A stretch of 64,000 bases of DNA from Ianthella basta. Taxonomy: Eukaryota; Porifera; Demospongiae; Verongiida; Ianthellidae. The DNA is taken from contig OZ025880.1 in the NCBI GenBank assembly GCA_964019415.1, positions 3,340,813 to 3,404,812 of the forward strand, written 5' to 3'. The translations under genes and the position numbers were made by a program. Shown piece by piece: positions 326 to 64,000 of this stretch. The notes under the pieces were generated by a model. That model was not told the origin of the DNA. It searched no databases and was given only the letters and a program-made list of their open reading frames with translations. Numbering within the stretch: the stretch's first letter is position 1; each line of letters opens with the position of its first letter.

Positions 326-3300
326 ATGAACACAGCTGGTGAAACTGTTAACCTGACTGGTATCTGGTAGGTGTGAACATTGTTTGCAGAGTTTGAGTCA
401 TCATCCTCCCTGTAGGTGATTAATGTATTGCTTTAAGTAAATGTCTACTGTACATACAGTCTGTCATACGCATTAGCTACATCATTACGTGCCATGTACA
501 TACAAACATAGCTTACACTTGTATTTCCACTGAGACCATAATTTCATTCACCGATGCATCAAATTGTCTGTCGTCAATGACAAAACGAACTGGCACCTTC
601 AGCTACATGTGAATACAAGAGAATGATTATTGCTAAATGCAGTTATGGCCCATACTACACTGTCATAGTCACCTCTGTGCCACCACCCAATCCATTAGGT
701 GTAGAGCAGGCAGTTTGCCTTGCTGTTGAATCTGTTTCACACATAAATTGAGCCCCATCCTCAACACGTGAGAAGGTCAGTGATGCTGGGTGGGTGAAGA
801 CTAGCTGAACGTTGTAGGCTGTTTCAGGGCCTGTATTTCCAATAGTGGTACTAAACACAATGTCAGAGACCACTCCAACTAGAAGAAAATCATCTTTGAA
901 AGTAGGATCCAGGTGGGATCTGTGTGTGAATGTGGAGCACAGTGCACTGGTTTAGATAACATGCACATAGCACATGAGTACATCATAGTAATTCTCACAT
1001 GTATTTAACTGGGTTTCCTTTGATGTAGGCATCCACACTGCACAATGCGCGAAGACACTCTTTGTTTCCAGCAACCTGCAATGTTGCACAGTATCGTGGC
1101 TGGTGAATATGTAGCAATCGTAAGAGCAGCAACCCTAAATGAATTTGATATATGCAACCACTTCCATGTGTAGATACGGGAATGGAGAGCATTTCCAGCT
1201 TACCATAGAGTCATGTAATACAGATAGACATATGTATAGTTAAAAGTGTAAGATGTTTGGCACTTGGGCACCCTTTCAGTTGCAAACACCAACACACATT
1301 TGAAACTGAAATATTTTGCAGCAGTATCTCAACTATTTGCAACACATGTCTGTACGTATGTTCAAGAATCTGCTCTCTACACTGTAACAGCTTACTTGAG
1401 CACTAAATATCCCGTCTGTCCGGACATATATCCTGTTTTTAGTGAGATCAGTTAGCTCCTGGTTGCCATCACTTTGAGAAGGTAGGTCTCCTTGAGGGAC
1501 AGACACATCCATAGCAGGACGAAGTGGAGCTACAAGCTCTTGCGAATTAGTGGTCTACAGACAAGCAAGAACCAGCTTCTGTGAAAGGCAGCAGACTGAA
1601 AGTGCTAACACATTCAGCACAGTGAATACCTGGATGTATAGTATAAAGTCATTGCACCAACTGTCATTGGAATTGAGCAGCAGTGAGGTCTGTCCTGAGA
1701 TGACAGCACTTCCAGAACTGAAAATAGCTCTGGGCTGGAGACCACTGGTGCGCTTGTCAGCATACAGGGTATAATTGATAGCTGGGGAAAATGAACAATA
1801 ACTGACTGTAGAATTGGATACAATAGACAACATACAAATGTTTGGCTAGAATGGTATCTGGCTAGGTGGCCATACCAATGTGCTGGTCTTCTCTGAATCT
1901 TTTTCCATTTATAGAAAGACAGTACTGAACTTGAAAGCTGCAATTTATAGAAACGAATCATGCCCACTGAGTTGAGTCTACATACACACATGCATGCAGG
2001 TATGATATCCATTCCAGAGTGATGCATGCATGCTAATATTTACCAGTGGTTAGCTGACTGATCCAGAGGACAGGATCTTTGGTTACCAAGAGTTACAGAT
2101 GTAGTAAGAGGCTTCACCACACCTACCACAGTGACAACACTCCTAGATCTGGACAAGAGAGTACTGCTAAATGAAGAAATCCAATTATTTAGTTGTGTGA
2201 GCTCACCTCATGACAAACACCTTTCGTGACATAAATGCTCCAATAATCAGATCTGCAAAGTGCATGTACAGTAGTCATATGAGGGATTGTAACTACTTCA
2301 AACACCTACACCCGTACTTGCTTTAGCAGGCAGTGGTGCACTCACCATTGTACTGATTGCCATCAATGTCTGTACCACCAGACAGGTAGGCACCAAAGGA
2401 GGTCAGACCAGCCAGTGTACTGGGCATCAGGTTCAGCTCACTCCCCACCAGGGTCTGTGCAGGAGTGGTGACAATGCCTTGGCGAGAACCACGGTAGATG
2501 TAGACTGTCCCAGACAGACCCTGTCCAAATGGAGCACTAATGGCCACATCTAAAGGAGGCATGGAAAGGCCAGTTCTCATCGTCTGCATTAACCTTCCAC
2601 TCCCCGCACACCACACTTGACTAAGCAACCTAGCACATGTACCCTACACAACATTGCCCGTGTGTCCTCTGCTGGCAAGGAAAGGCAAGTTGACACTGCG
2701 TTCCACTCGGGCACACATTATGTCCCCATGCCACCTAGCTATAGTGTGTTCTTACGTACCATCAAACCCATCATCATCCAGGTCCCCCAGAGGAGCAATG
2801 GCATGTCCAAACCTGCTGTACGCAACTCCCCCTCCTGGAGCAGTCAGAACTGTCATTTGGCTGTTGTCCAAGGAGCCTATGTTGTTCTATACAATGCACA
2901 AGGGCAAAGCACTCCCCGTGTAGTCATGCACTCCCTAGTTGTCCTAGCTGTAGGCACTAACTTAACTCACAGTGACTGTGTTCTCATAGACGTACACAGC
3001 TCCCACTTCAGGAAGGGAAGATCCCTTGAAGAACAATGGGGCTCCAACCAAGACATCATCAAACCTGCAATAGCCACAGACACCTGACCTCTCACACACT
3101 CATGCACACACACACAATGTTATGCACAATGTTACACTTTCTTGACATCACTTGGCTGCTCACCCGTCACCATCAAAATCCACTCCTCCTAAGCTGTACC
3201 CAAAGGATGCTCCAATCTGTGCAGAAACAATGAACATGCACTTTGTCTCAAGCCTGTTCCATTTCAAAAGGATGGTGATGATTAACCTACTTTAACAGCT

Positions 3301-6300
3301 TACCTGGCCACCAGTTAAAGTAAACACTGGTTTGCTGAATTGAGTCCCACTCTGGTCACCAGACAGTACATCACTGACATCAGGTATGAAAACATGGACC
3401 TCTCCATAGAGCTTGTTAGCTCGTGGGGCACTCATCAGCCAGTCTGAAAGGTAAAAGGAATATGCTGTACAGTAGTTCCTTGTACTTGATTGATGCAGGT
3501 GCAGTGCTATTGGGCCTGCTACTGTATTCATCCCATATATTACACATCAACATATAATCCACCTCATACACAAATTTATCATATGATGTGGCTTTTGATC
3601 AGTTTGCAAAGCTCCTGCCAAGGCAAAATTACTTGTCTAAACTTTCTTACTGTGCATAACATTCAGTGTGCATACACAAGAATGTAGTATTAAAGCACAC
3701 CCGGAACCAGATACCATACTATATGCTGCAAGCAATAATTATAAGGAATTGCAATGTGTGGTACGCATACCTGCTCTGTCCAGGTTGGTGATTCTAGCTT
3801 GTCTGACAGCCATTCCCCCATAGGATACAAGGGAATCTCCAGTTGGCCCTGTAACTGGTGCCATACCAGACCCACTGTAAACAAAGCCAGCTCCATTCCA
3901 TGTATGGTACCCTGGAGCACCAATAGCAAGGCTACCATCATCCTACAGGCACACAAGAGTTAACATCTGGTTCAAGTGATAAAAGAGTATTGGGTTAAAG
4001 TGTCATAGCATGCTTTTTGTGATGCTGCGGAAATGGTATATCAGAATTAATTATCTGCAATTACATAATAACAATCTTCTTTAAAATTTAAATTTAAATA
4101 TGACTGATTCACATAGCACGTAATGGAAGTTGTACATAGTTGATTACATTACTCCCAAAAGTGGTGGGCAAGATACGGCAGCCCACAAAGTACCTTCCAC
4201 TTCCTCTGTACAAACACAAAGCAACCACTAATTGCTGGAGATATTACTAGCCAATCTATTGCTTATTCGTATGCGGTAGCCTTCTAATCAGGCAAAGATG
4301 GACAGTACAGACAGTAGGTTGGTGCCATGCACTGGTAGATGTTCAATTGGAGGTCTTTGTCAGTCTTACAGTACATCCTGATGTCAGTCAATCGTTATAC
4401 TAGATGGCTACAACAGATTCCAAATGTGAGTGTAGCCATTAACATCACCACCAAGTCTGCTGTTTACAGCAAATCAACATGCATTGAATCTTGAGAGCCC
4501 AAAGGACACAATAAATCAAAGTGTCTGAGGGCCCCATCAGGAACAATTTTCAATGCATCCACCCATTTTCATGAGACTGGAGGTCCAAAGCACATTGCAC
4601 AAAGGACTGAACTTGCCTATGGGTACCCTATCAGGCCATGAAGACAACTGGCATTAATTCCAGAGGTGGATACCTCTGAGTACTGTAACATGTACAGTAA
4701 GTACTAATATTTTGCAGATGGCTCACTCAATTATATGTACAAATCAACTTATTTTACAACTTTTACTAGCACAATGTGCTCAAACAAGCCACAGGCAAAG
4801 TTCGACTACATACATGGGTACAGTAGTTATCGTCTACAGTATGAAACTACAGATACCTTCAGTAGAATAATAAAGTAGTACACCTAAGCAATGTGTAATT
4901 TCAACATGTACTCACCAAGAAGCTCATGTCTGTTCCAGACAAGCAGTATCCATAGTACCTATTTACAGCATCCTCTCCAAGGAGCAGCTGGTCGTTTGCC
5001 CCTGTGTGCAAGTCAGATGTGGAGTGCAGCAGAAGTGGGTAATTTCACATTTGTACCATACACAAATGGTTAGCATATAGCAACATACGTATACATATGT
5101 ATAGCAATCAATGTGCGTACGTGTTCTTTTGGTGAATGTTGATGGAAACATACTATATTGATGATTTGCACATGAAGGACAACTAAACATAATATAAAGC
5201 TTCTATGTACATCAAGCTTAATGCAAAACAAGACAATAACATTGTCCTACTATAGCATGCATTCATGACTTGCACACACCTGTGCCACACACTACTGTCC
5301 TCACCTTGGGTACAAGGCAGCACCACATGAAAGTCTCTTAGTAATCGTCCTGACACCAGGCATTTACCCTGAACATATCTGTTTGCACCAGAATTAAATC
5401 CCCTGGACTTCCATCTGTGACCACAAACCTTTCCAGCAGCAAACAAGTAGAAATATGTAAGTATGATGAAGGCATCCCCGATGAGCATGCATAAGCTACT
5501 AATGTCTGTGCTGCCATACCGCAAAGCTACCATTTCTGGACTCCATGGCCACTCCAAGAAACTGCTCCATCTTATCTTCATCAGCCTCATTGCCTGCCAG
5601 TGTGATAACAGGTGTGCAGAAAATGAACTGGTAAACTTGAATTAGCAAGACTGCACATGAGTGACCATGGAAGTACTCCCTAGAAATTGAAAGCACCAGC
5701 TTTCAGTCTTTAGCGCTGGCCACTCACTTGTTTCATCATAAAGCAGTGTGTCATTCCCATTCCCGCTTCCCCTCAGGGGGGTGCAGGTCCCTGGAGTTAG
5801 AGGGCACTCTAGCACATAGCCAGTTCTGTCTACACGGTAGTTAGCAGTTGTGCCATTGGGAACACCAACCAGGATCCTACAGAAACATCATGTAAGTAAG
5901 CAAGTTGAGCACTGGGTTAATGGGAAATGAAATTATGTACCTTGATAGTATGGCAAGCACCAATTCTTTGTTTTCTAATTAGATCACTAACTCTGTCCTC
6001 TCCTTAATTTCAACTGTTAATTTATTCATGTATGTCATTAGCTGTCACTCCCGTTTTGATTTCGTACCTTTTTCCCGCCTTTTTTAGTGTACTTAAAGCG
6101 AGCTTATCCTTTGTTTTGTATTCGCCACTGGCGATGACAACTGTATAGTTGTCGAAACGTTTGGTTTTATTTTCAAAGTTTTGGCTAGTGAAGTTCGGTG
6201 ATAGATACGTACACCAAGCCTCAGCCTCAGAGCTAGCTACACATTTACATCTGTCCCTCCTACTCCAAACAGGACCCCCTAGCACTCTACTACAATATGC

Positions 6301-6858
6301 AGTGTAAGTCTCACCTAACACTGAATGCCTCAATAGCTCCTAACACACTCCCCTAAAACACTGAATGCCTAGCTACAGTACTTCCCATTGTACAATGAGC
6401 TCTGCTTGGTGTTACAGTCATTTTGGGCCAGGTAGAGTTATACAAAACTGAGTAAATAAGATATTTCATGATAGCCATGTGGAGCAACTGACTTGCTCTT
6501 CAAGATACACAATTCAACTGATTGCACCAGTATTGAATGGTGTATTGAATCATAGACCCAAATAACAGTTGTGTGCATTGCTCACACTGCAACTAACCCT
6601 AAAAGGACTATAATGTGTGGGACCAGCCTGTGAGGTGACTTTCATCCTTTGGCCTTTGCTATAGATTATAGCCAGTTTAGTTTAATGTTCTGTGGAAGAC
6701 TCCTAATACCCTTCCCGCTTCGTGAGAAAAGTGAATTATGGAATGAATTAATTTTAATGGAAGGATGGATGGAATATATATATATAATACTAAATCTTAC
6801 CACCACTGATCTAGTGAAGCAGAAAATATACCTGGGCCAACAACACAAACATGCACAT

Positions 6859-6900
<42 letters not shown>

Positions 6901-7787
6901 GCGCACGCACACACACACACATACACACACACAACACACACACAGAAACCATCAAGTAACATGACATCACGCAAGTGCTATGCACACACAGAGCACATTG
7001 TTGTGGTGTGATGCAACTCATGTCACATCTTTATACCTGTCTATAATGTATTGTGAATCCAGTCAGTTCATATTGGTACCCCAACATGAGCTTGATTTGT
7101 CGATGATGACGTTTTGTCGATGATGAAGTCAAGCCATTAACTACACTCAACCAGGTTAAACATTAAACTACAGTATATCTGATATCATGAATGTATATAG
7201 CTACTCTGCAACGTAAGCAATTGCACCACTGATGACTTAGTTCACAGTGAAAACCACTCAACTGATCCAATTACCAGTCTGCAGACCACCCCTGTGCATA
7301 CCTAGCCAGTGTTAGTCACACACTGTTATTACAAGAGACCACTATGGCTGGTATAGAGTTACCTAGACGATCTCTGCATACACATTTCCCATTTGTCACA
7401 CGTAGCCAGATCGCTTCACCCTCTGATATACACTGTGATGTAATAGGTCAGGCCAACGTCACAGTACATGACATAGGACGAAGCAGTCAGGCTATGGGAG
7501 ACTAACAGCGGACACACCCAATTATTGCTCTAAATACTAATTGTTCTGTATATGGCTTCTCATTATGATAACATGGGAAGTGCAGTGGAGCCTACCCCAA
7601 GTAAGGAAGTGGTTTGGTATCAGCAGTGGTGAGCAGCCAACTATAGAAGAGTGTAGTGACTATCACAAATTAAGCTTGTATTGGGGTGACAATATGGAAT
7701 CACTGTCACCGTAAATTGCATCTGCTAGTGCACTCCCACAAAGATCTGCAAAGAGATTTCCTTTTCAGTACCTTTACAAGTTGGCGC

Positions 7788-7867
<80 letters not shown>

Positions 7868-8271
7868 ACCACACGCACACACACACACACACACACGCCA
7901 CACACACACACATACACGCGCGCGCGCACACGCCACACACACACACACGCGCGCACGCACGCACGCACACACTACGTACGTACACATCACAGAGCACATT
8001 TGGTTGCCTATGTACATAGTGTAGGATCACAGCTGTCCTCTTGTAGCCTACTGGCTCACCTGGCAGAGCGAGTAATACTCTCGAAGTCGGACCCGTTTGC
8101 CACTGGATCGACTAAGTTGTGTAGCGCTGCGCTGTATCCGAACAGGTCGTCCGTGTCGATGGCGTGCTGAGGTGGTGGTCCTCTAACGATAACTTCGTAC
8201 TCATCTATGGTGATGGCCAAAACAGTAGTGAAGAGTGCCAGACAACAGAGGACAGGCAAACGGCACGACAT
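326..8271 (-). CDS. Integrin alpha chain, gene A (3' end beyond window)
   Basis: Predicted cell-surface integrin alpha subunit: signal peptide, then seven-bladed FG-GAP beta-propeller and thigh/calf beta-sandwiches. No inserted I-domain is seen. Exons in coding order: 8271-8060, 5876-5728, 5593-5520, 5428-5305, 5001-4916, 3942-3771, 3443-3304, 3216-3164, 3064-2971, 2886-2760, 2549-2346, 2252-2207, 2148-2044, 1937-1876, 1781-1630, 1554-1396, 1075-999, 919-673, 602-517, 409-326. Propeller calcium loops are visible as DFDGDGFDDV, DLDDDGFDDV and DIDGNQYND, assembled across exon junctions. I chose the Met at 8271 because it gives a compact signal peptide (MSCRLPVLCCLALFTTVLA); an in-frame Met at 8301 is possible. 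The last seen exon aligns with the 84-nt exon of gene B before the calf-2 exons, so calf-2, membrane helix and tail should lie left of position 1. Family call is firm; individual borders about 85-90% sure. Confidence 0.9.
6040..6205 (+). mobile_element. Possible Penelope-like relic with hammerhead-like motif
   Basis: At 6126-6160 the sequence reads ...GGCGATGA, then a hairpin GACAACT/AGTTGTC with a GTAT loop, then GAAAC. This is the order of elements in the hammerhead ribozyme core (CUGANGA, stem II, GAAA), which Penelope-like retroelements carry in their terminal repeats. No reverse-transcriptase reading frame is left beside it. The core is imperfect, so this is a relic at best. Confidence 0.35.
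6861..6945. repeat. (CA)n microsatellite
   Basis: About 38 bp of pure CA followed by imperfect CA with CG and TA interruptions, in the first intron of integrin gene A. Confidence 0.95.
7786..7970. repeat. Compound (CA)n / (CG)n microsatellite
   Basis: About 70 bp of pure CA followed by an imperfect tract with CACGCC and CGCGCG interruptions. It lies about 90 bp inside intron 1 from the first exon of gene A. Alternating purine-pyrimidine tracts of this kind can adopt Z-DNA (general knowledge; not shown here). Confidence 0.95.
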
Positions 8272-13888: not shown

Positions 13889-14388
13889 AGACCGTCCGCA
13901 AAGACTAGAAAGTGCCGTTTAATAGCTTTTGCGTGGTTGTTGCAGTCGTTGATCGTATACAGGCTTTTTTGCGAAACCTATCTTTCAGGAACTACACGAG
14001 CCTTGAAAGTGCCTTAATCGCGCAAATGGCCCAAAAAGTGCCGGACAAACTGACCCACAATCCAAACGCATAACCCCTGTTGCGCAATCGCGCACGGGAT
14101 AATGAACATACAAAGCTACTTGCTAGCTACTGCTACACTACCTCTGAGTTCCGAATGTAGCCAGTTCATGGACCACTGAGCAAGACTGCAAAAACTGTAG
14201 TACCCATAGTATATATATGCACATGCAGTGCTGTGCTATATATGGCTGCACACATACCACACTGGGGGGTGTTCCTTGTCCAGGAGCATGTTATGCATGA
14301 CCATATTTGGCACATGTGACGAGTGGGCCGCGCCACAGTACACTGCACTAGAGCGCAAACTTGTCATCAGCGGAGAAGAGATCTAGAG

Positions 14389-32144
<17,756 letters not shown>

Positions 32145-32630: not shown

Positions 32631-43706
<11,076 letters not shown>

Positions 43707-45499: not shown

Positions 45500-48400
45500 C
45501 TATAGTTGTGTGTCTGCATTCTGTGTATCCATACAGGAGGCTTCAGCTGGCATGGCCTCCCCTGTACTGCTGCTACTGTCAGATGGTCGGGCAACCCTTA
45601 GCGGCAAGGGTCCTTCTCCTGTTGATTCATCGAGGAAGCTTTGTGGTTCAAGGTAGGGCGTATGAAATTGCCCTGTGCTTAACTGAAGAGGAATTTCATC
45701 CTCAGAGCTTTCAGCTACACTGGCAGCACTCATTGGGTAGTAGGGCATGTCATCTGCACCAGCATTGAGGTCAATGTAGTGAGCTCGGTGCACATTGTTG
45801 AGCATTTCCTCCAGCTTCACACGCAATTCCTTGAAGTGTGGTCTGTTGTGGGGGTTGAGAGCCCAGCAGAGTGACATCAAGTGGTACCTGCATGAGTGTA
45901 CAGTGAACAGTCAATAGTGTAAATGATACACTTGCATACACCCAGCAACACTCCATCTTTTACATGTATACAATACAGTATATGCAGGGACTGTATGTAC
46001 AGGGAGAGTCTAAATGTTGCATATTGCAAAGCCATGCATGCAAGCACACGTGTATCACACATCTAACATATGGCAGAGCAGGACATTGGTAATTCTCTGC
46101 AGTAAGTACCATTCCTCTGAGCAGTTCATCGGCTTCTCCAGTGTCTTTCCACTTAGCAAATAGCTAAGGAGAGCCCTGTTCCCAAGGGTGGGGTATGGAT
46201 GGCCACCTGTAAGGAACAATCACACAAAAGCATTTCCAGTGATGGCCATATCAGTATTGTTTGCATTTATCTATGCAGGTGCTCTTTCCTGGTTCACCTA
46301 CATACCAAAAGTGGTGATTTCCCACAGTGTCACACCAAATGACCATCTGCATGAGTTGTGTAAAAAGACTGATATCCATAAAGTTCTATGTATTATGTAC
46401 AGTCACATCAACATACATAATTAATCATGAACATTCAATGTCCTTGCTCACACATCACTCTTTGTTGTGAAGACACGTTCCTCAATGGACTCAGTGGCCA
46501 TCCACCGCAATGGAAGCTTCCCCTCTGTCGTCTTAACATAGCATTCATCCTCCCTAGCCAGCCCAAAGTCAGACACTTTGAGTTGCTTGTTGGAACACAC
46601 CAGGACATTCCGACAGGCAAGGTCTCTGTGCACAATACCAAGCTGACTCAGGTACTCCTGAATAGACAGACCAGACAAGGCATATTGAAACACACTCTTA
46701 TGAGGAAGTGCTGATTAAATTACACCCCTAGAGAGAAACAAAATCAGTATCTGGCAATACATGTGTACTGCCAGCAGACATCCCATTAATTCCTCAAAGC
46801 TGCCATGGTCAGCGTGTTAATCAGGGGAGCTGAGTAGTGAATTAGGCCGTGGTGATTTCCTCTTACTGAGCATGAATACCTGTAATCACATAATTGCTTG
46901 TATTTAATCAATATACACTCAGGTTTCACAAGGGAAGCTAGTGAATGCCTTTGTGGAATGGCAAATGCATGAATGATTAAGAAGGAAAGGCTAGCAGTTA
47001 CCTCAATACAGTGGTAAGCAGGAGATCAATGGTCAACAACATTATATTCGTACTTGCACTAGCTGCCACTACTTCTTAATACACTGGCTCAGTGAGTGGA
47101 AGAATGCATGCTTGATGGTGTCACTATGGTTACTGTGAACTATACAAATGTTGTACGTTGCATGGGAAAGGCATACACTGTGGTGTATTACGTATGACTG
47201 TACCATTCCACTTGCAATCTGCCATCCATATGATATAAAGTTGGCAGGGGTGACCTCCTCGATGACAGGACACTCAGTGCCAGCATTAGCCACTGGTAGG
47301 TCTGTCTCTCCCAGGATGTCCTCACAAGTAGATTCCTCGGGACCATTCACATACTGGTTCTCATTTTCTCCGCTCTCCACCTGTTCTGGTTCATCACACT
47401 ACAGAGTGAGTGTACATTGTGTATTAGTTACATGTACACACACACACACAATACATACCCTGTAGCAGCAGGTTTTCAGGATACTCACCAGCTTCCTCAT
47501 GGCCCTTAGGTAGCGAAGGAGGTCGCCATTAGATGCATACTCCAAAACAAGGGCAATGGGTTCTTCGTGGGTGCAACACCCTATCATGTTGACAACATAA
47601 GGACAAACATCTCCACTGACTTTCTTCATCAATGCAATTTCACGCAGGAATTCACTTTTAAGTGTTATTGTTGCATCAGCTGTCAGAGAGGGAGGAAGGC
47701 AGGGAGAAGGAGTGGTGTTTCATTTGTCATGTGAAAACTGTAAAGTAGAATATTGCTGAAAGAAAATACACATTGTAAATTTCTATGAAACTACATATTA
47801 CTGATTATGTTGAGGAGAAACATACATTTAAGTAGTTTCACTGCCACAAGCAAGTTCCCAAGTGTTTCAGAGTGGTGTCTGGCTGCTGGTGCATTGGCTT
47901 CAAACTTGACCAGTCCTCGGTACACTTCTCCAAAATTCCCTTCTCCTAATTGCCCAAGGATGATGATATCCTGAGGACCCAATTCCCATGAATCCATGTC
48001 TTGAAGAGGACATTCCCCATCCATTCCATCATCCATAGTCACTGCATTCTCTACAAACAGTGATGATGTCTGAAAGAAAGAGATACATACAATGTATTGC
48101 TTGTAACCTACCCTAGATGACTGCCTACTACATGTGTATGTATAAGTGATCAACTTACAGGAATGACTACCACCTTGTTCTTTTGATAGTAGCATACACA
48201 AGCAACAATGAGGACAATCAGTAAAATTGCTGCTACAGCTCCAACAACACATGGTAGTACCACACCATATATGGCAAAGTCATGGGGTCCGGCTGCAGCA
48301 GACACACATTCAAACACAATGAGCGGCCAGCAAAGAGCATGCTGAAACATCTGCTGATTGCCATGTTACCTAAGTGATGCTCCACAAACACTGAGGTATT

Positions 48401-51400
48401 TATCCATGCACTGCATGCTCCCCAGTTGGATTTAGCCCGCACCTATTGACAGAAGAGTACTGTTATGTGCAACAGCACGACATGTGACTGCAGCCTCTTA
48501 CTGCTTCTACTTGAGAACAAACTCACAGCAAAATCATACGAGCCACTCCTGGATATTGTCAGGGTGACCAAAGTCTCAAACCGCTGACTTGGAAGGACCT
48601 ATGTGTAATGATTAGAACAATATCAGCAGAAAAGGTAATGAGTGCTGTGGTGAATACAGCTAACAGAAAGTCTCACCACAGCCTCTTTTCCATTGCTCCT
48701 GTGGAAAATGGTTTTGTTTAACAGTACTTCTGTGCCATTGGAGGTAGAAACGAGCACATTGAAGCTGTTGTTACCATAAGGAAACATTGAGTTCTGCCAT
48801 GATATGTTGAAGGTAACTGTGCCACTGCCACTGGGGTAGTTCAGAACAGTCAGGTTTCGTAAGTTGGAAGGTGAGACAGCTGAAAATAATGGGAGATTGA
48901 ATGAAACACATAAATCTACTGTACATTGTATGAGACATGAACAAATCCAAACGTTGGACCTACGGTTGATGCTGATTGTCCAATTTTGCTCTTTAAAAAT
49001 CTCCCGATATTTGGTATTGACAATGAAACAGCAACCTGGGCTCAGCTGATTGAGAACAACGCATGACATTGTTTGTGAATAAAGTTACAGGGCTAAACTG
49101 TGTGTAGGTCACATCTCTGTACACCTACGTAGTATAAATGCACCAATGCTGCACTCACTTTCAAGCTGTATACTTCTCCATCAGACGTAGGACTCACATT
49201 GTTGAAGACAATCACTTCATCGCCAGAAGAGAAGTTCTACAGAGTTGCATAACAACACCTCATGGCATTACTTTAGTTAACAGATACACTTTGTCACTTC
49301 CATTGCTTCAACCAGCTGGATAAACATATGGTAAGCATGGCTATTTCCTTAGTTAGTGCATGTCTCATTCATAAAGTCCTTTCAAATTGCACTGTAATAA
49401 TAAGGTGTCGAAATGCAGCTCTTTTCACATCTACAGTACTTAGGCATCTTGTTTCTCAACCAGCTACTGCAGCTTACTTGCAAAAGCAAAACTTGCTAGT
49501 AAGTACTTACAAGTATTTTGGTCTCTTCTTCATTCAGTATCTGCTGTGACCTGCTCAATTTCACCAGTTTAGCTTGCAAGCTATTCAGAAACATCTCAAG
49601 CTTCAAGCTAACATTGCTGGAGTTGTTTATTACTGCTCCTTGAATAACAACATCAGCACGGCCGCTAGTGCGGTTGTAGGTATTGTTGTGGTAGTAGGTC
49701 ACTTCTGGATGAAGGATCTCAACTTCTGATGAGTATGTGGATGAAGAGTGTACCACACAGTGAACATGCAGTCATTGATGCATACAACTTAAATAATATA
49801 TCTGCATGTACACATGCTATTATAGTGTGCATTCGCTAAAGGGATTACCTTGCAGTAGAAAACTGGCAATCATCTGCTTTGGCTTATACGCCTTATCTTC
49901 AGACTCTTGGTATCTCTTGAGAGTGGTGTTAGGAGTTCTGGGGTTAACTAAAACCTTGCAATTAGGGAATCAGAACAGGATTAGCACCCAATCATTTTCC
50001 AGGTTCACATACTATACAATGCACCATCGAGTACAGCAAACTCACAAGGAAGGTAACGTTGCAATTCCATACAGATGTAAAGTTGTATTCTTGAAGTTGC
50101 CTCCTGTTCATGACAAAGCTGAGCCCTTCACTCTATGCAAAATGGGAACAGATTGGCACATTAAAAATTGTCATCACCAACACTGTGCCCATGCAAGCCA
50201 GTTACAATTGGTAACAATTAAGAACACACCAAAGAGTATACGATCTATATAACATAACATATAATTGATGTAAAAAGCTATATACAACCTGGAATGAAGC
50301 TACACCTTCTGTACAGTAATACTGAATAGCTTTTGCTCTGGGCAGTGAAGACCCGGAAGGTGACCTTCCTGAAGTGCAGCATTGATCTCATAGGACTGTA
50401 CAAGATCATGATCTGGGATGGAGATAAAATAGAACAATTCAACTTATCATGTACTGCCAATGAAACATGCATGCACAGTGCTATATTCACCTGGACTTCT
50501 TGCACATGTGATATTCACTTCTAACAAGCCCTGTGTGTTGAAGCTGGCATCAATGCTCATGTTTTGTGGAGTTGATGGCTGATACTCACCTGAACACAGA
50601 GCAAAGTGCTACCTTCAGTTTGCCAGGTACACATTGGGCATTTCCGCATGCAGTATATATTAGCAACTAACCAGGAAAGCATACTGTTGTAGAAGGTGAG
50701 AATCCTGAGCAGCCACCAGCATTAACAAATGCATATGAAATGTTGGCTGACTCACAAAACTGTACAATCCTCAAATACCCAGCCACTCCACTGTGGTTGT
50801 AATGGACAAATAGGTGATATACATGTTCAGTCTCCAAGGCTCGGCTGCTTTGATTAAACGGGTGCCTGAAATGCTATTGTGAGATAAGAAGCATGCAGTA
50901 TTGCATTACAGACACTATTCTGGAAACAGTTAGTACCTAGTAACAGCCAAACAGAGCTTACAGTAGCATAGTAAAAGATGTCTGTTGAATTTAATGGTTC
51001 AACCTTCCAAATCAACCCTACAGGGGTTGATGCATTCATTGAGGCTGTGTCTGTTCCAGAGATGTTATAAGACAGAGCTGGGAAGTTTTTCTGAAGTTGA
51101 ATGTCATCTGATAGATACATAGCTGGAGGTTGTACTGGAGTTGCTGGGACTGGTAGTAAACCTGCTCAGACGCATTTCAGAGAGGAACATGTGCAAAGTC
51201 AATATCCCATGCAAACCACTGTTTCATGTAGCAGAACCAACCTTGTTTATCTGATCGTACAATTGCCTCTGACAGATTTAGAGTCTGATTGCACATTGCT
51301 GAACATAGATAGCTGTTGAAGCATGCACTTACACACTCTTGCTTCCCTATGTTCCCATCAAAGGCACTTGCACATATTCCAAACTCCTATAAGTACAGTA

Positions 51401-52229
51401 GCTGCAGGTTAGGTTATAACAGTGCATAGTTGGTAACAGTGCAAAACTCACAGGAACATAGCATAGATCTGAACACTGAGGATTTGCAAGTAGACTATGC
51501 AGAGTAGTGTTCAGTTCATGGAATCTTTTAGCATGCTTCGTGGACTGATTGCCCATTGAAGTGAGACTTAGTAGATACTGTCGATCTCTGTGAAATTGTA
51601 TCTCTTTGTATGGGTTATACAGATCCAAGTTCTCTTGGCCAGGCTCAAGACTGCCGTGAAAATCTGGCCAATAGGAGTTAACGTGCCACACGCATGTTGC
51701 AATGCAGAGGAATACCTGCAAGGCAATTATTACAGGTTAAGTAAATGACACAGCTAAATCAGTGAAAGAAGCTTCAGAGTTACCGATAGGTTATCCAAAC
51801 AGTGTAGTGTAGCCGTATTGGGAATGTTGTACTGGGTCGGAGCATCGTCACCAGAAACATTCATCTGTTTGAGAAAGCACAATAGTAGCTAACTAGCTAC
51901 GTACATAACTAAAATTCCAGCTTCGTTCAAATGCAAAGTACAACAGATTGACTCACCATGCCAAGGCAAGCTGTGAAACATTGCTCCGGCTGAACCACGT
52001 GCAGCAGCAAATCTTTCGCTGGGATCAAGTACAGTCCTGGCGAGTCCCTGGTCGAGGCTCTGGCATCATTACTGATGTTGCCCACGCGTGAAATAGTTGC
52101 GTCATAGCAGTACTCGAAGTCACAAGAGGACGAAGGGAGAACGTCCAGTGCCCACGGCTCGTAGGCATTGAGAGACGTTGCAGAATATAATAAGGCAGTC
52201 AAAAAGATATGCTTCCTGAGGACCGTCAT
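45500..52229 (-). CDS. Receptor tyrosine kinase, gene D (complete)
   Basis: Single-pass receptor tyrosine kinase. Exons in coding order: 52229-51957, 51864-51784, 51715-51452, 51386-51334, 51161-50962, 50865-50672, 50589-50491, 50412-50306, 50132-50046, 49954-49849, 49725-49511, 49236-49159, 49045-48964, 48879-48677, 48598-48527, 48442-48370, 48292-48159, 48069-47826, 47679-47489, 47398-47204, 46657-46452, 46346-46306, 46206-46110, 45887-45500. The order is: signal peptide; Cys-rich N-terminus; FN3-like region with WKVEPL and a C-terminal module (48879-48370); transmembrane helix in exon 48292; kinase with GQLGEGNFGEVYRG, VAVK, HRDLACRNVLV, DFG, PLRWMATES and DVWSFGVTLWE. All catalytic residues are present, so it should be active. 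A roughly 50-residue insert before the catalytic loop holds YVNG, a Grb2-type SH2 site. The Ser-rich tail ends DTQNADTQL. The subfamily cannot be assigned. Confidence 0.93.
46110..47972 (-). other. Tyrosine kinase domain of gene D
   Basis: Kinase subdomains run from the P-loop GEGNFGEV (exon 48069-47826) through the alpha-C region (FLREIALMKKV) and hinge (LVLEYASNGDLLRYL) in exon 47679-47489. The acidic insert lies in exon 47398-47204. The catalytic loop HRDLACRN, DFG and a short activation loop with one Tyr (DECYVKTTEG) are in exon 46657-46452. The C-lobe is in the last three exons, ending NPHNRPHFKEL in exon 45887. HRDLACRN plus PLRWMA identifies a receptor-class tyrosine kinase. Confidence 0.93.
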
Positions 52230-52266: not shown

Positions 52267-52274
52267 TATATATA
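52267..52274 (-). promoter_or_regulatory. Candidate TATA box of gene D
   Basis: TATATATA reads on the minus strand about 38-45 bases upstream of the start codon at 52229. If used, the 5' UTR would be only about 10-15 nt. It could also be a chance AT run. Confidence 0.35.
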
Positions 52275-52675
52275 CAAAGCTGTGTGTTTCCTACAACCCT
52301 TGACACCATGACGGTGGCCCTGGGGCCGCGGGCGATTGTGAAACAGCTGTGCATCACGGGCTGCTCGAAGAACACTACCAACTAGAGTAAGTTGTGCAGC
52401 ATGTCTAATGGCTTAATGTGTGGCTATGTCAAACCTCCTCTCCAATAAGGACAGCAGCTGCGTACGAAGCCAACCTCGCATTGCGCCCACACAGCAGCAG
52501 CAGACGACACGGAGACTCATTCCACCATTCCTGACTTTCCCTTACTTAGAAGTTAGGTAAAGGATTCGTTTCTTTGCATATTATCTCCGTAGCAGGGTTC
52601 AGCTTCTGAACGAAAGGATTATAATATTATTAGCATGGCTGTCGGGTGCCATTTTAGCCTTGCAACTTATTTCGG

Positions 52676-53265
52676 TCGGGTATAATTTTCGGACCAAAAC
52701 GGACCGACCAGACCGGACCAATACATTAGATAGGGGCCTGTGCGGTCCATCAGAAAGCTGCTACTCACACTTTCGCCCTTTGTATCGACTTGTCTGCACT
52801 AGGTTGGTTTTCTCTGTGCTTAGTACGACTCTCCAGACGGGACCAGTAAGTTAGAGCATCATTTGGCTAACTGACATTTACTTTTTTCGGAGTGGCTATT
52901 GTTCCGGCAGCCAGCTCAGCAAAATTATAGAAAACAACACCGTAGGTTGCGATATTATATCCTGTATAAATTATTTAGTATTAGGGTTAGGGTTAGGGTT
53001 GATTTTATATAATTTTGCTGAGCTGGCTGCCGGACCAATAGACACGGGGTACTTTTTTATGTATCAACATCCTGTCGCAAGCTGAACAACGCTCTAATTT
53101 ACTGGAGAATCTTACCAAGTGCAAAGAAAACCAATGGAGAGCAAGACAAGTTAATACAAAGGGCGAAAATGCGAGTAGCAGCTTTTTGATCGACCGCACA
53201 GGCCCCTATCTAATGTATTGGTCCGGTCCGGTCGGTCCGTTCTGGTCCGAAAATTATACACGGCC
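52676..53265. mobile_element. Foldback/MITE element with nested inverted repeats
   Basis: Arms of about 185 bp (52676-52863 and 53085-53265) are near reverse complements and start with TATAATTTTCGGACCA and CGGACCGACC motifs. A second, inner inverted pair (about 52898-52930 and 53008-53042, GCCAGCTCAGCAAAATTATA) lies inside. The centre carries three TTAGGG repeats (52981-53000). There is no coding capacity. Confidence 0.8.
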
Positions 53266-53721
53266 CTTATTTCCATGTAATAGCTATTGAAATGGGGACC
53301 ATGAGGTTTCTCCGAGTTTTAGAGCACAAGGCACGAGGGCGCGAAGCGCCCAAGTGCAGAGTGGTCTAAGTATTTATGGAGCGTTGATGAGCATTCACGT
53401 AGCTGTAGGTCTTCTGGTTCCAGTATTAAAACGTTTCAGTTCGGGGTCAGCATTTAAGTGTTATAGATTCCAAATGATTGGGTCAGGAGCCAGCAGTGAT
53501 GACCAATACTTTGTTCCGTGCATTTAGACCAGATGGAGTTTAACAGCGAGCATCGAGCAGTGCTAATCGAAAGCATTGAAATGCCAACACACGTTAGCAC
53601 TGGACACACTCTGTCTATGCACTGCCACCTAGCCATGCACAGCACACTCATCTAACAGTTGTACATATTCAGTTCATGTCAGTCATGTGTACATATTATG
53701 TATTCACTGGTACAAGATTCT

Positions 53722-54319
53722 TGTAGAGGCTCATAGTTGCGTTGATAATACACTGATACGAGATTCTTGAGCAAGACACAACTGATAATGATAAATCAAT
53801 CAAATGCAGGATGTTTCGACCCGAAGGTCTTTGTCAACTGCGTACAGGATAAGGGGGTGAGGTGAGAGGTGGCTATTTATAACATTAGGGGTATTAACAG
53901 CAAAGACTCTCTAGTACACAAAATACTGTAATCTGATTGGTTGAGTTACAAAACCTGGGATGGACAACTGTAAGGAGTGGATTGGCTGTTTACAATAAAT
54001 GTGATGATGTAATGACAGGTAATGTCCTAATGTGGCCTAATGTGGGCTGGGTGTGTTACAGCTAATAAGTAAAGTTACATAGTAATGTACAAACAAGAAA
54101 GTAAATTAAAGAGCAAATGATAGATAGAGGGTGGGGGTAATATTACGTTTGGTCCAATACCGGGTTCCAGAGTGAGGGGAGTAGTAAGCCCTTGTCTAGG
54201 TTCATGGACCTCTTGCTTCTCCTGATCTCAGTAGCTTCCATCGTTCTCCGTTCCCAGTACCCTTGCACTGTTCTCACAACCTTGGCCCCTGGCCAATCAA
54301 TACAGTGTTGACTCTTTCT
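53722..54319 (-). repeat. Left inverted arm of the Penelope-like element
   Basis: Reverse complement of 55273-55868 with only a few mismatches and a 2-bp length difference. It breaks off at the ACTCTTT where the sense coding sequence begins. Confidence 0.88.
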
Positions 54320-55447
54320 GAGAGAACTAGCATCCCAGCACCACAGCTGGTGGAGCTTGTTGAACTGTGTTTGCGCTCCTCTTACTTTCAGTTTGAAGAT
54401 TTCTTCTATGAGCAGGTAGATGGCACAGCAATGGGCTCCCCACTCTCGCCCATTATTGCCAACCTCTGTATGGAGAGTCTGGAAGAGGCAGCAATCAGCT
54501 CAGCAGAACTCCAACCTAATCTGTGGGTTCGCTATGTGGATGACATGTTCGTGATCTGGACACATGGACAAGAGGAATTGCACCGGTTTCATCAATACTT
54601 GAACAACCAACACCCTAACATCCAGTTTACCATGGAAGAGGAGAGTGGATGCAAACTAGCCTTCCTCGATGTCCTTGTCACCAGGAAGGATGAGAGACTA
54701 CTGACCTCTGTTTACCGGAAACCAACCCACACAGAGAGATACATTCCCTTCAACTCCCACCACCACCGGACGATTATCACTGGTGTACTGAGAAGCATGA
54801 GTGATTGAGCACATCGCATTTGTGACCCTTCTACCAAGCCACAGGAGCTACACCACCTGAAGAACGTTTTCGAAGCCAATGGTTTCCCCCCAGATCCGGT
54901 GAAGTAGACACTCCAGGTCCCTCCCAAGTCGGCTCTACCCCCACCAAAGGAAGACCCCCAAACAGAAGAGCCACAGAAGACCTTGCGAACCCCCTATGTC
55001 CGTGGTCTGAGTGAGAAGCTGGAGAGGATTTGTGCATCTCTCAGTATCCGTTTGGTCTTCACCCCAGCACGCACCCTGAAGCGGACCTTAATGAAGGTAA
55101 AGTCACGGCTCCCAGATGAAAAGAAGAAAGGAGTGGTGTATCAGATCCCCTGCAACAACTGTGATCATGTGTCCACAGGAGAATCAAAGAGAACTCTGAA
55201 AGTACGTATGACAGAGCACAAACAAGCTGTGAAGATGAGTGATCCTAGCAATGGTATTGCGGTCCATGTGGCAAAGAGTCAACACAGTATTGATTGGCCA
55301 GGAGCCAAGGTTGTGAGAACAGTGCAAGGGTACTGGGAACGGAGAACGATGGAAGCTACTGAGATCAGGAGAAGCAAGAGGTCCATGAACCTAGACAAGG
55401 GCTTACTACTCCCCTCACTCTGGAACCCGGTATTGGACCAAACGTAA
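54320..55447 (+). pseudogene. Penelope-type reverse transcriptase/GIY-YIG remnant
   Basis: The frame reads through the fingers/palm (YEQVDGTAMGSPLSPIIANL), catalytic YVDD box (LWVRYVDDMFVIW), LAFLDVLV and VYRKPTHTERY, then a C-terminal GIY-YIG-like module (GVVYQIPCNNC ... RTLKVRMTEH). The N-terminal RT part with the first catalytic Asp is missing. Two in-frame stops (TGA at 54806, TAG about 100 bases later) separate the RT and endonuclease parts. The usual YIG is replaced by STG, so the nuclease is probably dead as well. Confidence 0.85.
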
Positions 55448-55868
55448 TATTACCCCCACCCTCTATCTATCATTTGCTCTTTAATTTACTTTCTTGTTTG
55501 TACATTACTATGTAACTTTACTTATTAGCTGTAACACACCCAGCCCACATTAGGCCACATTAGGACATTACCTGTCATTACATCATCACATTTATTGTAA
55601 ACAGCCAATCCACTCCTTACAGTTGTCCATCCCAGGTTTTGTAACTCAACCAATCAGATTACAGTATTTTGTGTACTAGAGAGTCTTTGCTGTTAATACC
55701 CCTAATGTTATAAATAGCCACCTCTCACCTCACCCCCTTATCCTGTACGCAGTTGACAAAGACCTTCGGGTCGAAACGTCCTGCATTTGATTGATTTATC
55801 ATTATCAGTTGTGTCTTGCTCAAGAATCTCGTATCAGTGTATTATCAACGCAACTATGAGCCTCTACA
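55273..55868 (+). repeat. Right arm of the Penelope-like element
   Basis: Contains the end of the coding sequence (stop near 55445) and then non-coding repeat. A hammerhead-like core lies at 55753-55777: TTGACAA, stem GACC-TTCG-GGTC, GAAAC. Two core positions differ from CUGANGA. Confidence 0.85.
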
Positions 55869-56603: not shown

Positions 56604-56633
56604 CTGAAGAAGGCCAGAGCATCTGGTCAAAAC
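56604..56633 (+). ncRNA. Hammerhead-like motif, probable Penelope relic
   Basis: CTGAAGA, A, stem GGCCAGA/TCTGGTC with GCA loop, then AAAAC. The layout equals that in the Penelope arms (55753-55777), but the core strand here is intact (CUGANGA) while GAAA has become AAAA. It is probably a solitary remnant of another terminal repeat. No activity is claimed. Confidence 0.4.
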
Positions 56634-58314: not shown

Positions 58315-58739
58315 TTCTCTAAGTCTCTTCTTGACGTCAGGGTTTTAACCCGTATGCACCAAGTAACTGCAAGTCGACCCAAACCGCTGCGTACAGAAGA
58401 CATGAGAATGAAAAGAGAAGAAGTTACCAGCAGCGAATACTGGGAGTTGAGCGCGGATCCTTCACCCCGTTAGTCTTCTCGGCAACAGGCGGCATGGGCC
58501 CTGCAGCACGCGTCACCTATAGGAGACTAGCCTCTCTTCTAGCAGAGAAGAGGTCCTTGCCATACCACCAGGTCATCACCTGGCTCCGCTGCCTACTAAA
58601 TTTCTCTCTGCTGAGATCCACAATCATGTGCATCCGAGGTGCGCGATCAACCTCAAATGGACCAAGCAGATCAGCTGTGCGCGTTAATTCACTCGACCTA
58701 GCAGCCTGCACACACGTGGATGTGCGGCCCAGCTGCTAG
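58315..58739 (+). pseudogene. C-terminal relic of a retroelement-type ORF
   Basis: In frame from about 58344: FNPYAPSN, then a basic helix (AYRRHENEKRRSYQQRILGV), ERGSFTPLVFSATGGMG, RLASLLAEK and WLRCLLNFSLLRSTIMCIRG. I recognise this pattern from the C-terminal part of reverse-transcriptase ORFs in aquatic invertebrate genomes (from memory). LDVRV just upstream (58330-58344) is in another frame, indicating a frameshift. No upstream RT domain remains. Confidence 0.55.
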
Positions 58740-59627
58740 ATGACTTCCAGTACAGTATAACAGAATTATGAGTTACTTATTTTACCATATTATGTTTTGT
58801 TTCTTTGTTTTCAACCACCATTCATGTATAAGTATTATCATTACAATGTCGTACCTTACCTTAAATACCTGTATGGCAGTGCCCATGTGTGCCTATATAC
58901 TTGTTTAATTGAAGTTTGGTACCTCGCGGTTGCGTCACTTCTCTAAGACAGGGAACTGAAGTCCTTCAACGGGGCAGCCATATGATTAAAAGCGTCATGC
59001 CAACCAAGTCGCCGAACTGCTGGGTGTTATCCCTCTGCTTCCTGTACATCTTCAGACCAGAGGTGGTTTGGTTGCCTGTTCTACAGCTTTCGAAGGCAAA
59101 AGACGCCTATGCTCTCGCGCCGAGCGACGTTTGGAAGCCAGTTTCAAAGTCCTTCCCTCGGTTCTTCCGGCGTGAGGGAGGCAAACAGAAAGACCGACAA
59201 TATAAATTCCCCATCTTCAATACTTCTGTCGATACATTATTGTATAAATGCAAGCACAGTTATACTACCTCAGTTAACGTATTATATAAACATACCGACA
59301 TATACCACCGGAAGCGGGACACGAAGCCATACAATGTCAAAACGAAAACAATGCCCCTGTCTCATTTCATCGATCATGTAGTTATGTGCCCCTAACATCG
59401 TGGTTGTGAATATGTATATGCTTTAGACTGAACTCGAACTTTATTCAAAAGGCTCTACAAAACAGCTAACTCACTCTCAGCAAGCATATCTGTTGCAGGT
59501 TTGGTAGGTCCAGACAGTATAAGCTGATGTGCATACAAGTGGGACAGTACTTTACGCGCTTCACACAGTTTACTGCCTACTCTTCAATCTTTGGGATGAT
59601 TAGTGCAGGTAATTGTTGTGTGCAGTT

Positions 59628-59817
59628 GATGATCATGAAGGATTATGAGCATAATCACAGCACGGGAGGAGTCCGATAGCCGGGACTCCTCACTAGTCCG
59701 TAGACCTGTGATAGTACTTGTGTCCAATAGCAGACAAACCTTTCTTTCTGTCACAACAGTCCCAGCCATCGGACTCCTCCCCTGCTGTGATTATGCTCAT
59801 AATCTTTCATGATCATC
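59628..59817. mobile_element. Small inverted-repeat element (MITE-like)
   Basis: Arms of about 50 bp, GATGATCATGAAGGATTATG... through GGAGTCCGAT, and their near-perfect reverse complement at about 59768-59817. The spacer is about 90 bp with no coding content. Confidence 0.65.
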
Positions 59818-60639
59818 TCTTCAATCTTCTTTCTTCCAGGTTCATCATTATTATATTTGAGCTGCGTGAAGAAGGTGTTACCTGCTCAGACTTCACCAGC
59901 CTTCTTCATTCAAGTATTGATCGATTGATTGATTAATTATTATTTGTCAACAGGGAGCTGCATCCACAAGAGTGGATTTTCATGCAGGCCCTGGCACACA
60001 GCTACATCACAAAGAAAGCATAAGATACATAGAACATGCAACATGCATATTGTCAATAAATGAAATAGTAAAAAAAGAAAATGAAGCAATGTCGGTTTAA
60101 ATGGCTAACAGCATGTCTAAATGAGGAAAGAGATGAATTGGAACGGATAGTCTCTGATAACTGATTGTAATACATTCCATATATCATACAAGCTACGTAC
60201 CCTATACACATGTCCAATGTTACTATTGTATTTCTTTTATGTGATGCATACCACTCTAGGCTGTGCCAGGTGTTTATATATATATACAGCTTGTAAACTT
60301 CAAGGTTCTATTTAAGTCAGTTTCCTGCCCATGCGATAGCACATTGAACTCAGCTCAGATACATATGCACACCCCTTGACAAGTTACTTATTGAAGTTTC
60401 TAGTGCAATGAGCACAGAAAAATAGATATATCCTACAAAGTCTACAGAAACTCAACACATAATGTGAAGTTGAAGGAGTTCTCAGTCCTAATTTCATCTA
60501 ATGTGCAATGAGACAGCTATAATTTATTGTGGCTCTTGCTAATCTGTGCAAATGGAGCTTAATTGATTGTTAATTGGGGGTGTAGGTTATCATCTTACCA
60601 ATTAGTGCAGGGGTATAAGATGAGGTGTAGTGCTATTCA

Positions 60640-63600
60640 GTGGTCACTGGTCACACTATGCATAGACTGTGTTGTCTGGTTTATTGGGTCCTCACTGTGT
60701 CAGCTGTACTGGCGCAGAACCAGCCCAGCCCTTGTGAGTTGCCACAGAAGTGTTTCCCTCCAAAGAGTGCAGTCAATGTAACAGGAGACCTGCAGAGTCT
60801 TTTTACTCAAGCCAGATGTTACAGTGCCTGTGTGGAAGATGTGAGCAACTTTAGGTTAGAGCAGAAGTGCTCATAGAAGTACTCTGCTCAGCTGGATTAT
60901 ATGTGCCTTTAAGAGGAAGTAGATGCAGAGAATGCATCCATTCAGTTAAGTTCTCTTATTTGTACATTGCACAGGAACGGCTGAACCTCTCAACAGCTGC
61001 TGTGAAGGTCAGTTACCTGTCACACTAGCCTCTCCACATTTTAGTATTCTATAAGCCTTCATTCTTGTCACCTATTTGGTCTCATTAATGCAGCTGAACT
61101 CCACCTTACCACACTGGCCAAGTGTTCACCTCAAAGAGAGTGCTAGTGCTATTGTTCAGGCATGTACTGCTGGATGCTCTTTTGCATTATTTGGTTCACT
61201 TACTTGCCCATTCGTCCTTTGTGTAAGTTCCCATGCATAATATTAAGCCAAGTTGCAACATTTGATGTGGTAGCACTGTAGGAGTCATTCAACTTAAACC
61301 ACTCTATTACTTCAGGGTTCTTTTTTTGGCACTGAGAACGAAGATAATTGCAATCTGGGCTGTGAAATAGGCAATCAGATTAAAAATGAAACTGGTATGT
61401 GCAACAACTACTGCTGGTGCCAGTAAGAGCTTTAATCAGCAAAGTCCTCTTCTCTTGTTGCTCAGGTAATCCACCAGTTGCTCCCATTGCACCTCCAGTG
61501 CCAATATCCTACAACCCATTTCAGTTTGACTTTGCTAGTGCACAGCCCAAGACAAGTCACGGTGCAGTGGAACATCTGAATTCATTCATTGTGCTAATGA
61601 ACAATGGAACCACAGATGCTTCATTTCAGTTGGTGAGTTGTACCGTGAATACATGATTCATGTATATGCATTCGTCTAGTATTGTTTTTGGTTACCAATG
61701 TGTGTAGGGGTCTCCAGCTGACGAGTTGATTCCATTCAGTCAATTCAGCTGCGAGTTTGTAAATGCTTCATTTGCAGTTGTCAACCGCTATGGTGCTTCT
61801 AGGATGTCTCCACCTGTGGCAATGTGTGGAGGAGGTACGTTTGTGCTAGCTTGTGCACCATGATGACCTGACCACCTGTCCTTGGACTGCTTTTTTTGAG
61901 AAAGAGTCTCTTCCTCTGCAGGAATAGTCTATCCATCTCATGTTCGCGAATTGGAGGTTACCCTTGTTGAGGATCGTGACAGGAGGGATGAGTTCAATGT
62001 GGACGTTGTGATGATAATTCTGTCTTGGAAACCACCCCCTGGTAAGGATACTTAGGCAACTGCATTCACCTGCTAGTGTAAAGTACCAGGTTCCACTGTA
62101 CTGTGTCATATTGCCGACTACAGAGGCACAATTTGTCACTGAGTATCAAATTCAAGTCTTCCCAACGAGTATTGAAGATCACTGCCCAAAGAGTCAGGAT
62201 GTGATAGAACCTTTTTCTGTTCCCAAGGTCTGCTTACTGTAGTGATGGCATGGTCTATGCTCCTTATGTTATCAAAACTCTGTCTTTCATTGTTCAATCT
62301 CTATAGGACAGTGTTGACTTCACTTTGGAAAGCAACAATGCTACCGGCTTCAAGTTGCCAGTGTCTTGTGAATTTCGCATTGTAGTAAGTAGTATCACAT
62401 TCACAGTTTATGCACCATATATATACGTAGTAATAACACATAACAGTGTACAAGTACCTGTAAGTGATTTGCACAGGCCTCAGGGTGTACCCTTTGGCCC
62501 TGCAGTCCTGGATGGAACATTGCCTCTGTTCAGCACAGGCAGTGCTCCAGTGTGTTGCAAACACTGTAGAATAGTATTTGGATGTTAATTAACACATCTA
62601 CACTTCTTTTCACTTTAGATAGAATCACTGCCACAAATTTCAGAAACACTTTCAGCAGACTTAAAGCAATCAGAAGAAATTGTTGTAACAACTGATTATA
62701 TTGGTTAGTTAAACATGGCACCATTTTGAATCTCATGTTTGGAGGTACTACTGCTTATGTCTTTATACACTGAACAGGTGAACAAGGCCTTAACCTGACT
62801 GTTATGTCAGATTGGACATGGAATGAAGCTGGGTTCTATTCACTTGGACTGAATGTCTCTTTGCCTGATGTGGGCTATGTGCGAGAAGGACTGCGGGAGT
62901 TAGAGATTACTGTACATACTGCAAGGATCAGTAATATACAAGGGGGATTTAAGATTCTCCAGATTCTTCCAAGTGACCGGATTGCTATCAGCGTAAGTGC
63001 CAACTCTGAACTGGCTATTTTATTGATTAGGTTGAACTGGTAAGTTTATCCTATCATCCCTTGCAGGTAAATCAGCTTACTTACGTGCATACTCTGTCAG
63101 CCCGCTACCCTCCTAAGGAAGATGATGTGGAATATGTCTTTGATGTACGTATACCTTCCCAGGTTAACTCTTACAAGACGCACATCTTCAAATTTTGTCT
63201 CCTCTGTTTTACAGATTAGGCCCAAGCACCATGCAGATTATTACAACTACCGGATGCCAGAAGCAAAGAAACTGAGCTTTTCTGCACCAAGTAGGTAGTA
63301 CTTAGCCCTTCAGCAGTTTGTGCACCTGCTTCATGTTTGTGACCTCGCCTACTGTGCAGGCTTTCCTCCTAGTCCAGCACTGAATGTCACAGTGAACTCG
63401 TATGAACTGAATGGTGCTAACCTTACATTGAATATCTCATGGCTGCCACCAACTGTCTCCAATGGGGAATTGCATAGGTACTCAGTCTACGTCTGGCACC
63501 TGAAAACACCAGACATCAAGCAGTCCATTTCAGTTTCAGTTAGTAAGATAGGCACTTGGCTATAGCTGCTATAGTCTTGAAACATATCATACCACATATT

Positions 63601-64000
63601 TTATTAATATTCCTACATAGGCTGACAACTTGAATTTATTCCTGGCCAAGGAGATATTTCCTGAGAAGCTACAGTACATTATGGTAAGCTGTGTTTGGAT
63701 ATTGGCATACATAACCTACATGTATTTAGCATATGTGGAAGCACTTCTTGTGTTCATTTACACCTGCTACATACTATGCAATTCCTGTTTTCTGAAGGTT
63801 CTTGCCGAGAACTACCACAAAGCAGCCAACTGGAGTAAGCCAGTCATACTAAACCTTGGTGCAGCAAATGCTGGCATCGCAGAGGATGTTATATATGGAG
63901 TTGCTGTTACAGCTGCAATAATAGCAGTGGTGCTAATCATCCTAATTGTCTTGACTGTGGTTTACTACTGGCAGAGAAGAAGGGACAAAGTTGTCTTCCT
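60640..64000 (+). CDS. Receptor tyrosine kinase-type receptor, gene E (3' truncated by window)
   Basis: Paralogue of gene D. Exons: 60640-60840, 60975-61007, 61094-61222, 61316-61394, 61466-61632, 61708-61834, 61922-62041, 62124-62227, 62307-62384, 62619-62703, 62778-62992, 63067-63144, 63215-63290, 63360-63538, 63621-63683, 63798-beyond 64000. It has a signal peptide (CLVYWVLTVSAVLA), a Cys-rich N-terminus (ARCYSACVED, CNLGCEIG), FN3-like modules (LSWKPPP, then a module with SWLPPTVSNGELHRYSVYVW) and a transmembrane helix (IIAVVLIILIVLTVVYYW) followed by QRRRDKVVF. The kinase itself is not in the window; it is inferred from gene D, with which two ectodomain exons match exactly in length (215 and 78 nt). 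Start Met 60640 or 60658 are both possible. Confidence 0.85.

Follow-up and report, generated by a model that had tools for sequence, protein, structure and literature searches.

An integrin alpha/beta gene complex beside receptor tyrosine kinase genes in the sponge Ianthella basta, with a candidate beta-kinase fusion gene

We analysed a stretch of 64,000 nucleotides from the genome of Ianthella basta (the window; C13:3340813-3404812, on contig C13 of 7.59 Mb in an assembly of 209 Mb in 96 contigs), in which three integrin alpha genes are followed by two receptor tyrosine kinase (RTK) genes. On balance, the window is probably the alpha end of a duplicated integrin alpha/beta complex, with the two RTK genes as its chance neighbours, and one gene within this complex, here called F1, would join an integrin beta head to an RTK kinase. 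The complex covers about 361 kb of the contig, from the first beta locus to the end of the third alpha gene, and the window is its right end.

Gene models were obtained with a self-written gene finder and then scanned against Pfam. The models and Pfam matches confirmed the order and strands of the five receptor genes given by an initial annotation of the window, namely the integrin alpha genes A (-), B (+) and C (+) and the RTK genes D (-) and E (+). Gene A occupies positions 1..8271, and its model extends leftwards out of the window to about -1925 (C13:3338888). Gene B lies at 14371..32144 and gene C, a 22-exon model, at 32631..43706, with 486 bp between the end of B and the start of C. All three encode FG-GAP propeller repeats (PF01839; 3.7e-15 in A, 3.3e-19 in B, 2e-14 in C) as well as leg Ig-like domains above the Pfam cut-offs, Integrin_A_Ig_2 with 1.1e-7, 2.3e-7 and 1.1e-14 and Ig_3 with 2.5e-6, 8.4e-12 and 5.8e-23 in A, B and C, respectively. 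The Ig_1 profile passed its cut-off in C only (7.3e-12), the scores of A (17.8 bits) and B (16.7 bits) staying under the 26 needed. A transmembrane segment with a GFFKR-type motif was present in each gene (GFFKRK in A and B, GIFKRK in C). The tail exons of B (31560-32144), which the finder split off as a gene of their own, encode the transmembrane segment, GFFKRK and the Integrin_alpha cytoplasmic region (1.2e-4); PF00357 exceeded its cut-off in B, and A and C were unlisted at E 0.1. The model of B also includes some false exons, due to a minisatellite and to part of a transposon. A whole-genome search with PF08441 returned no matches, for the controls as well, probably on account of short exons.

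The initial annotation had also stated that no other credible gene lies between the five. This held in so far as no other gene model had a significant Pfam match, with the exception that between D and E a retroelement at 53722..55868 contains a reverse transcriptase ORF (RVT_1, 2.3e-8) flanked by inverted arms of 596 bp (53722-54317 and 55273-55868) that are 99.5% identical. A further ORF between D and E (58335-58739) had no significant Pfam match (best 0.054), and scans of the window for Rfam families and tRNAs gave no match.

The proposed paralogy of the alpha genes was borne out, since A and B match far beyond chance (72.5% over 80 residues, E 4e-35; 56% over 91 residues, 4e-35), and C is a more distant paralog than this pair. 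An integrin alpha query found A, B, C, a left-hand alpha at C13:3161-3162k and a locus at C7:254k, together with weak matches at C13:366.8k (E 0.002) and C7:2620k (E 0.09-0.17), and a query made from C gave no additional firm loci. The exons of the left-hand alpha (C13:3161310-3162315) are 84-97% identical to A. At the DNA level, its stretch C13:3161315-3162321 is 92.9-97.1% identical to window positions 2341-3067 of A over 393 and 315 bp, and 97.4% identical to positions 19557-19707 of B over 152 bp, with lower identity around. Judged from the sequence, these high-identity patches among the left-hand alpha, A and B suggest gene conversion.

Extension of the contig in both directions, proposed earlier as a check, uncovered 15 integrin beta loci and a second alpha on the left and one more RTK on the right (C13:3416223-3417957). 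The complex consists of the beta loci (seven on the minus strand, then eight on the plus strand; C13:3023575-3336910, PF00362), the second alpha (the left-hand copy, close to A in sequence), and A-B-C, so that four alphas lie beside or among the 15 betas of C13:3.02-3.34 Mb; the last beta model and the A model lie about 2 kb apart. Genome-wide, PF00362 gave 120 exon matches, which we grouped by hand into 27 beta loci, 24 of them above the Pfam cut-off and three below (C3:10984k, C5:10.69M and C6:5319.8k). Contig C13 holds 20 of the 27, including the 15 of the array. The suggestion that local duplication operated in the receptor cluster was upheld, the three alphas of the window forming the edge of a complex that has 15 beta loci, and the complex most likely grew through local duplication and inversion. 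A chimeric assembly, raised earlier as a concern, is unlikely given the length of the contig and the 264 kb joined around the window without a single N.

We read most betas of the plus half exon by exon, the locus at 3206k excepted, and several genes contained the full series of exons b01-b20. One sibling, b3325, ends in an NPxY-type cytoplasmic tail (PF08725, 3.6e-11). In the part of the minus half that was read (C13:3140001-3150000), the beta exons match the plus copies. A separate observation concerns the beta gene b3294, whose EGF3 exon b18 (C13:3304731-3304823) has an in-frame stop, so that it is a pseudogene or contains an assembly error.

The candidate fusion gene F1 lies in the plus half (C13:3272560-3289683, + strand), 51-68 kb left of the window. 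Its exons b01-b17 and then the kinase exons k2-k7 follow each other in order and free of stops over 13 kb (C13:3276949-3289683), and a search for b18-b20 in F1 found none of them. Downstream of b17, a linker rich in Ser, Thr and Pro carries a transmembrane stretch and leads into a juxtamembrane exon, k2-k7 and a stop codon. Upstream, as in the siblings, there are a signal-peptide-like exon (3272560) and a PSI exon (3276256-3276360), which the finder itself joined in two siblings. The F1 model of 1034 aa was joined by hand and departs from the finder output, with the signal-peptide exon added and the stretches between b05/b06, b07/b08, b12/b13 and k3/k4 omitted. It matches Integrin_beta (PF00362, 1.2e-81) at residues 120-372 over profile positions 3-248 of 248, and PK_Tyr (PF07714, 1.1e-81) at residues 705-1001 over positions 4-257 of 258. 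The beta half has an I-like VWA domain with the sequence DFSNS, a MIDAS-type DxSxS motif, and an I-EGF domain (PF18372, 2.7e-7, above cut-off; PF23105 at 20.8 bits, under its cut-off of 27). The beta tail domain and the NPxY tail are absent from F1, with no match to b19, b20 or PF08725, as is the EGF3 exon b18. In their place stand a single transmembrane segment and a complete tyrosine kinase with its catalytic motifs GxGxxG, HRDLACRN, DFG and APE.

The main alternative, which we regard as unlikely though worth weighing, is that F1 is a chance juxtaposition in which a beta gene lacking its 3' end sits beside kinase exons lacking their 5' end, with no fused protein and both parts decaying. Against it stands the absence of any stop or frameshift in b01-b17, the transmembrane exon and k2-k7, with dS near 0.3 to the siblings. 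In addition, the splice phase at the junction speaks against this alternative. Six of six siblings examined have the b17 donor in phase 0; F1, alone among the seven copies, has it in phase 1, at the same GTGAGT (score 5.3), and this change brings the join into frame. F1 reads into its transmembrane exon in phase 1 as well. The unfused RTK at C13:4156726, the one RTK compared, was read likewise, at a transmembrane acceptor with a score of 0.6 that the finder did not choose, and such an agreement of phase would occur by chance in about 1 of 3 cases. From the transmembrane exon through the juxtamembrane exon to the kinase, the phases of F1 and the unfused RTK agree. The beta and kinase halves were united by the gene finder in four runs or settings; with homology hints it picked a b17 donor 18 nt further, with the phase unchanged. 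In favour of a juxtaposition, the donors of the transmembrane exon (GTGCAT, score 1.1) and of the juxtamembrane exon are weak in F1, and the array holds a remnant (C13:3312.9-3315k) and the stop-bearing b3294.

A further point for the juxtaposition comes from a sister copy, F2 (C13:3216097-3228506), in which the kinase has decayed. Between C13:3217k and 3227k, F2 has b01-b18, an unusual tail and then the decayed kinase at the place that matches F1, and in both genes the first exons of the next beta gene directly follow the kinase. Most kinase exons of F2 are gone, k4 has a 5-bp insertion, and HRD has become HHD. Its k5 is closer to F1 (dS 0.153) than to the unfused RTK (dS 0.260). This pattern suggests that a unit of beta gene plus kinase was duplicated and that the kinase of one copy decayed afterwards. 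The tail of F2 (C13:3226405-3227201) is long and has three imperfect NPAY repeats replacing the usual integrin tail; a search of 280 kb gave no second copy of this exon.

Regarding selection, the beta part of F1 gave dN/dS of 0.29-0.37 against six siblings, and the 15 pairs without F1 gave 0.21-0.38. The kinase of F1 against the unfused RTK gave dN 0.083 and dS 0.375, i.e. a dN/dS of 0.22 over 245 codons. A three-way count over k4 and k5 assigned four synonymous and five nonsynonymous changes to F1 and eight and 11 to F2, numbers so small that constraint on the F1 branch is unclear, which leaves room for the juxtaposition. Besides F2, the nearest relatives of the F1 kinase among the matches listed are about 12 loci at C13:3.97-4.26 Mb, and its family has many copies on C4 and C11. 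Weak matches to the transmembrane exon of F1 lie immediately 5' of two RTKs on C4 (40%, E 1.8e-4; 33%, E 0.037) and apparently of one on C20 (28%, E 6e-4). In the unfused RTK (C13:4150-4160k), the ectodomain is short and of another kind, lacking an integrin match and any match above a Pfam cut-off.

Under the favoured reading, tandem duplication would have built the integrin alpha/beta complex, and RTK 3' exons would have landed behind one of the beta genes, where a small change at b17 made the splice in-frame. F1 would thereby have lost the stalk, transmembrane and cytoplasmic exons of an integrin and gained from an RTK its transmembrane, juxtamembrane and kinase exons. Integrins are not known to have enzyme activity of their own and must recruit FAK and Src. 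F1 is predicted to be transcribed as a single mRNA, and its head may still pair with an alpha chain (A, B, C and the left-hand alpha being neighbours). Ligand binding would then cluster the F1 kinases, and adhesion would lead directly to tyrosine phosphorylation with no recruited FAK or Src. F1 may have lost its heterodimer behaviour, as it has neither a beta tail domain nor an EGF3 exon. More tentatively, one beta head on three different inner ends (an integrin tail, three NPAY repeats or a kinase) might give differing outputs, the kinase form signalling upon binding, although we hold this to be somewhat short of an even chance. If F1 is what it appears to be, it is a germline integrin beta with an RTK tail, meaning that evolution can bypass kinase recruitment, and it offers a natural test of whether activation of the integrin head alone drives a kinase.

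Like other animal integrin beta chains (PF00362, PF18372, PF08725), F1 and its siblings have PSI-like, I-like VWA and I-EGF parts; unlike them, F1 has no beta tail domain or integrin tail and ends in a tyrosine kinase, and F2 ends in three NPAY repeats. Ectodomain shuffling has been described for groups of RTKs in the holozoan tyrosine kinome (PMC8662651), and F1 resembles those RTKs in its RTK-type transmembrane, juxtamembrane and kinase exons; that paper's main text does not use the term integrin. Several alpha and beta paralogs are likewise found in Ephydatia muelleri (seven beta and six alpha integrins; PMC6820919) and Oopsacas minuta (three beta and five alpha integrins, with domain structures as in other animals; PMC10280926), compared with which I. 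basta has 27 beta loci, 15 of them in a complex that contains alphas, plus the candidate kinase fusion. In the part consulted, PMC8380372 gives no count. Our limited literature search found no report of an integrin-kinase fusion, and prior publication is possible.

The two RTKs at the right of the window were identified by a tyrosine kinase domain together with a hydrophobic transmembrane stretch. D lies at 45500..52229 (-), with the transmembrane stretch at 48192-48251 and a PK_Tyr match of 2.7e-52, its model being incomplete in the kinase (profile positions 4-190 of 258). E begins at 60704, with an uncertain 5' end, and continues through the window edge at 64000 to about 66720 (C13:3407532) on the plus strand, with the transmembrane stretch at 63903-63962 and PK_Tyr at 7.3e-83. 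In the HRD exon, the two kinases share 66% identity. The genome contains at least 135 RTK loci, many of them arrayed (C2, C4, C7, C10, C11 and C13). A genome-wide PF07714 search was dominated by kinases in one open frame and did not enter the counts.

Linkage had led the initial annotation to consider co-regulation, in which the integrin alphas and RTKs would be held together as an adhesion-signalling cluster. Five RTK loci are indeed found no more than 50 kb from an integrin (F1, D, E, the locus at 3417k and the decayed one of F2), and kinases whose HRD exon is 65% or more identical to that of E occur only on C13 and the small contig C84 among the matches listed. C84 itself seems to duplicate C13:2509651. 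We compared the positions of 34 integrin loci and 135 RTK loci, the latter hand-picked among the matches listed, by rotation, with approximated lengths for the chromosomes besides C13. Within 20, 50 and 100 kb of an integrin there were 3, 5 and 7 RTK loci, against 2.25, 3.41 and 5.32 expected from rotation within chromosomes (P 0.31, 0.32 and 0.33) and 0.59, 1.01 and 1.76 from rotation over the whole genome (P 0.076, 0.067 and 0.088). The counts being within chance, we rejected a special adjacency of the two families; adjacency alone therefore requires no co-regulation. Moreover, each family also has loci or arrays elsewhere, away from the other. With RTKs this numerous and clustered, the case for co-regulation from linkage is weak, and we consider such a cluster very improbable. 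The linkage of the five genes may be fortuitous in a genome where clustered copies of both families abound, D and E being members of the large RTK family that would adjoin the complex without special cause.

Equally improbable is that the integrin array serves allorecognition, as had also been floated, or immunity and is shaped by diversifying selection: the copy number is far over the two published sponge counts and the fastest exons by pN/pS are b08 (1.01), b01 (0.61), b18 (0.59) and b05 (0.54, presumably the specificity loop), but only the short b08 reaches 1 and dN/dS over b01-b17 is 0.21-0.38 in all 21 pairs of the seven beta copies, one of them partial.

Several repeats were observed in the window besides the retroelement. 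A second, older inverted repeat (75%) lies at 52674-53265. An intron of B contains a 20-bp minisatellite in 26 copies (16619-17139), the source of false finder exons. In the B intron sequence at 20793-21675 there is also a repeated ORF piece, which matches at about window coordinate 135000 (39% over 54 residues) and which we take to resemble the helix-turn-helix part of a DNA transposon.
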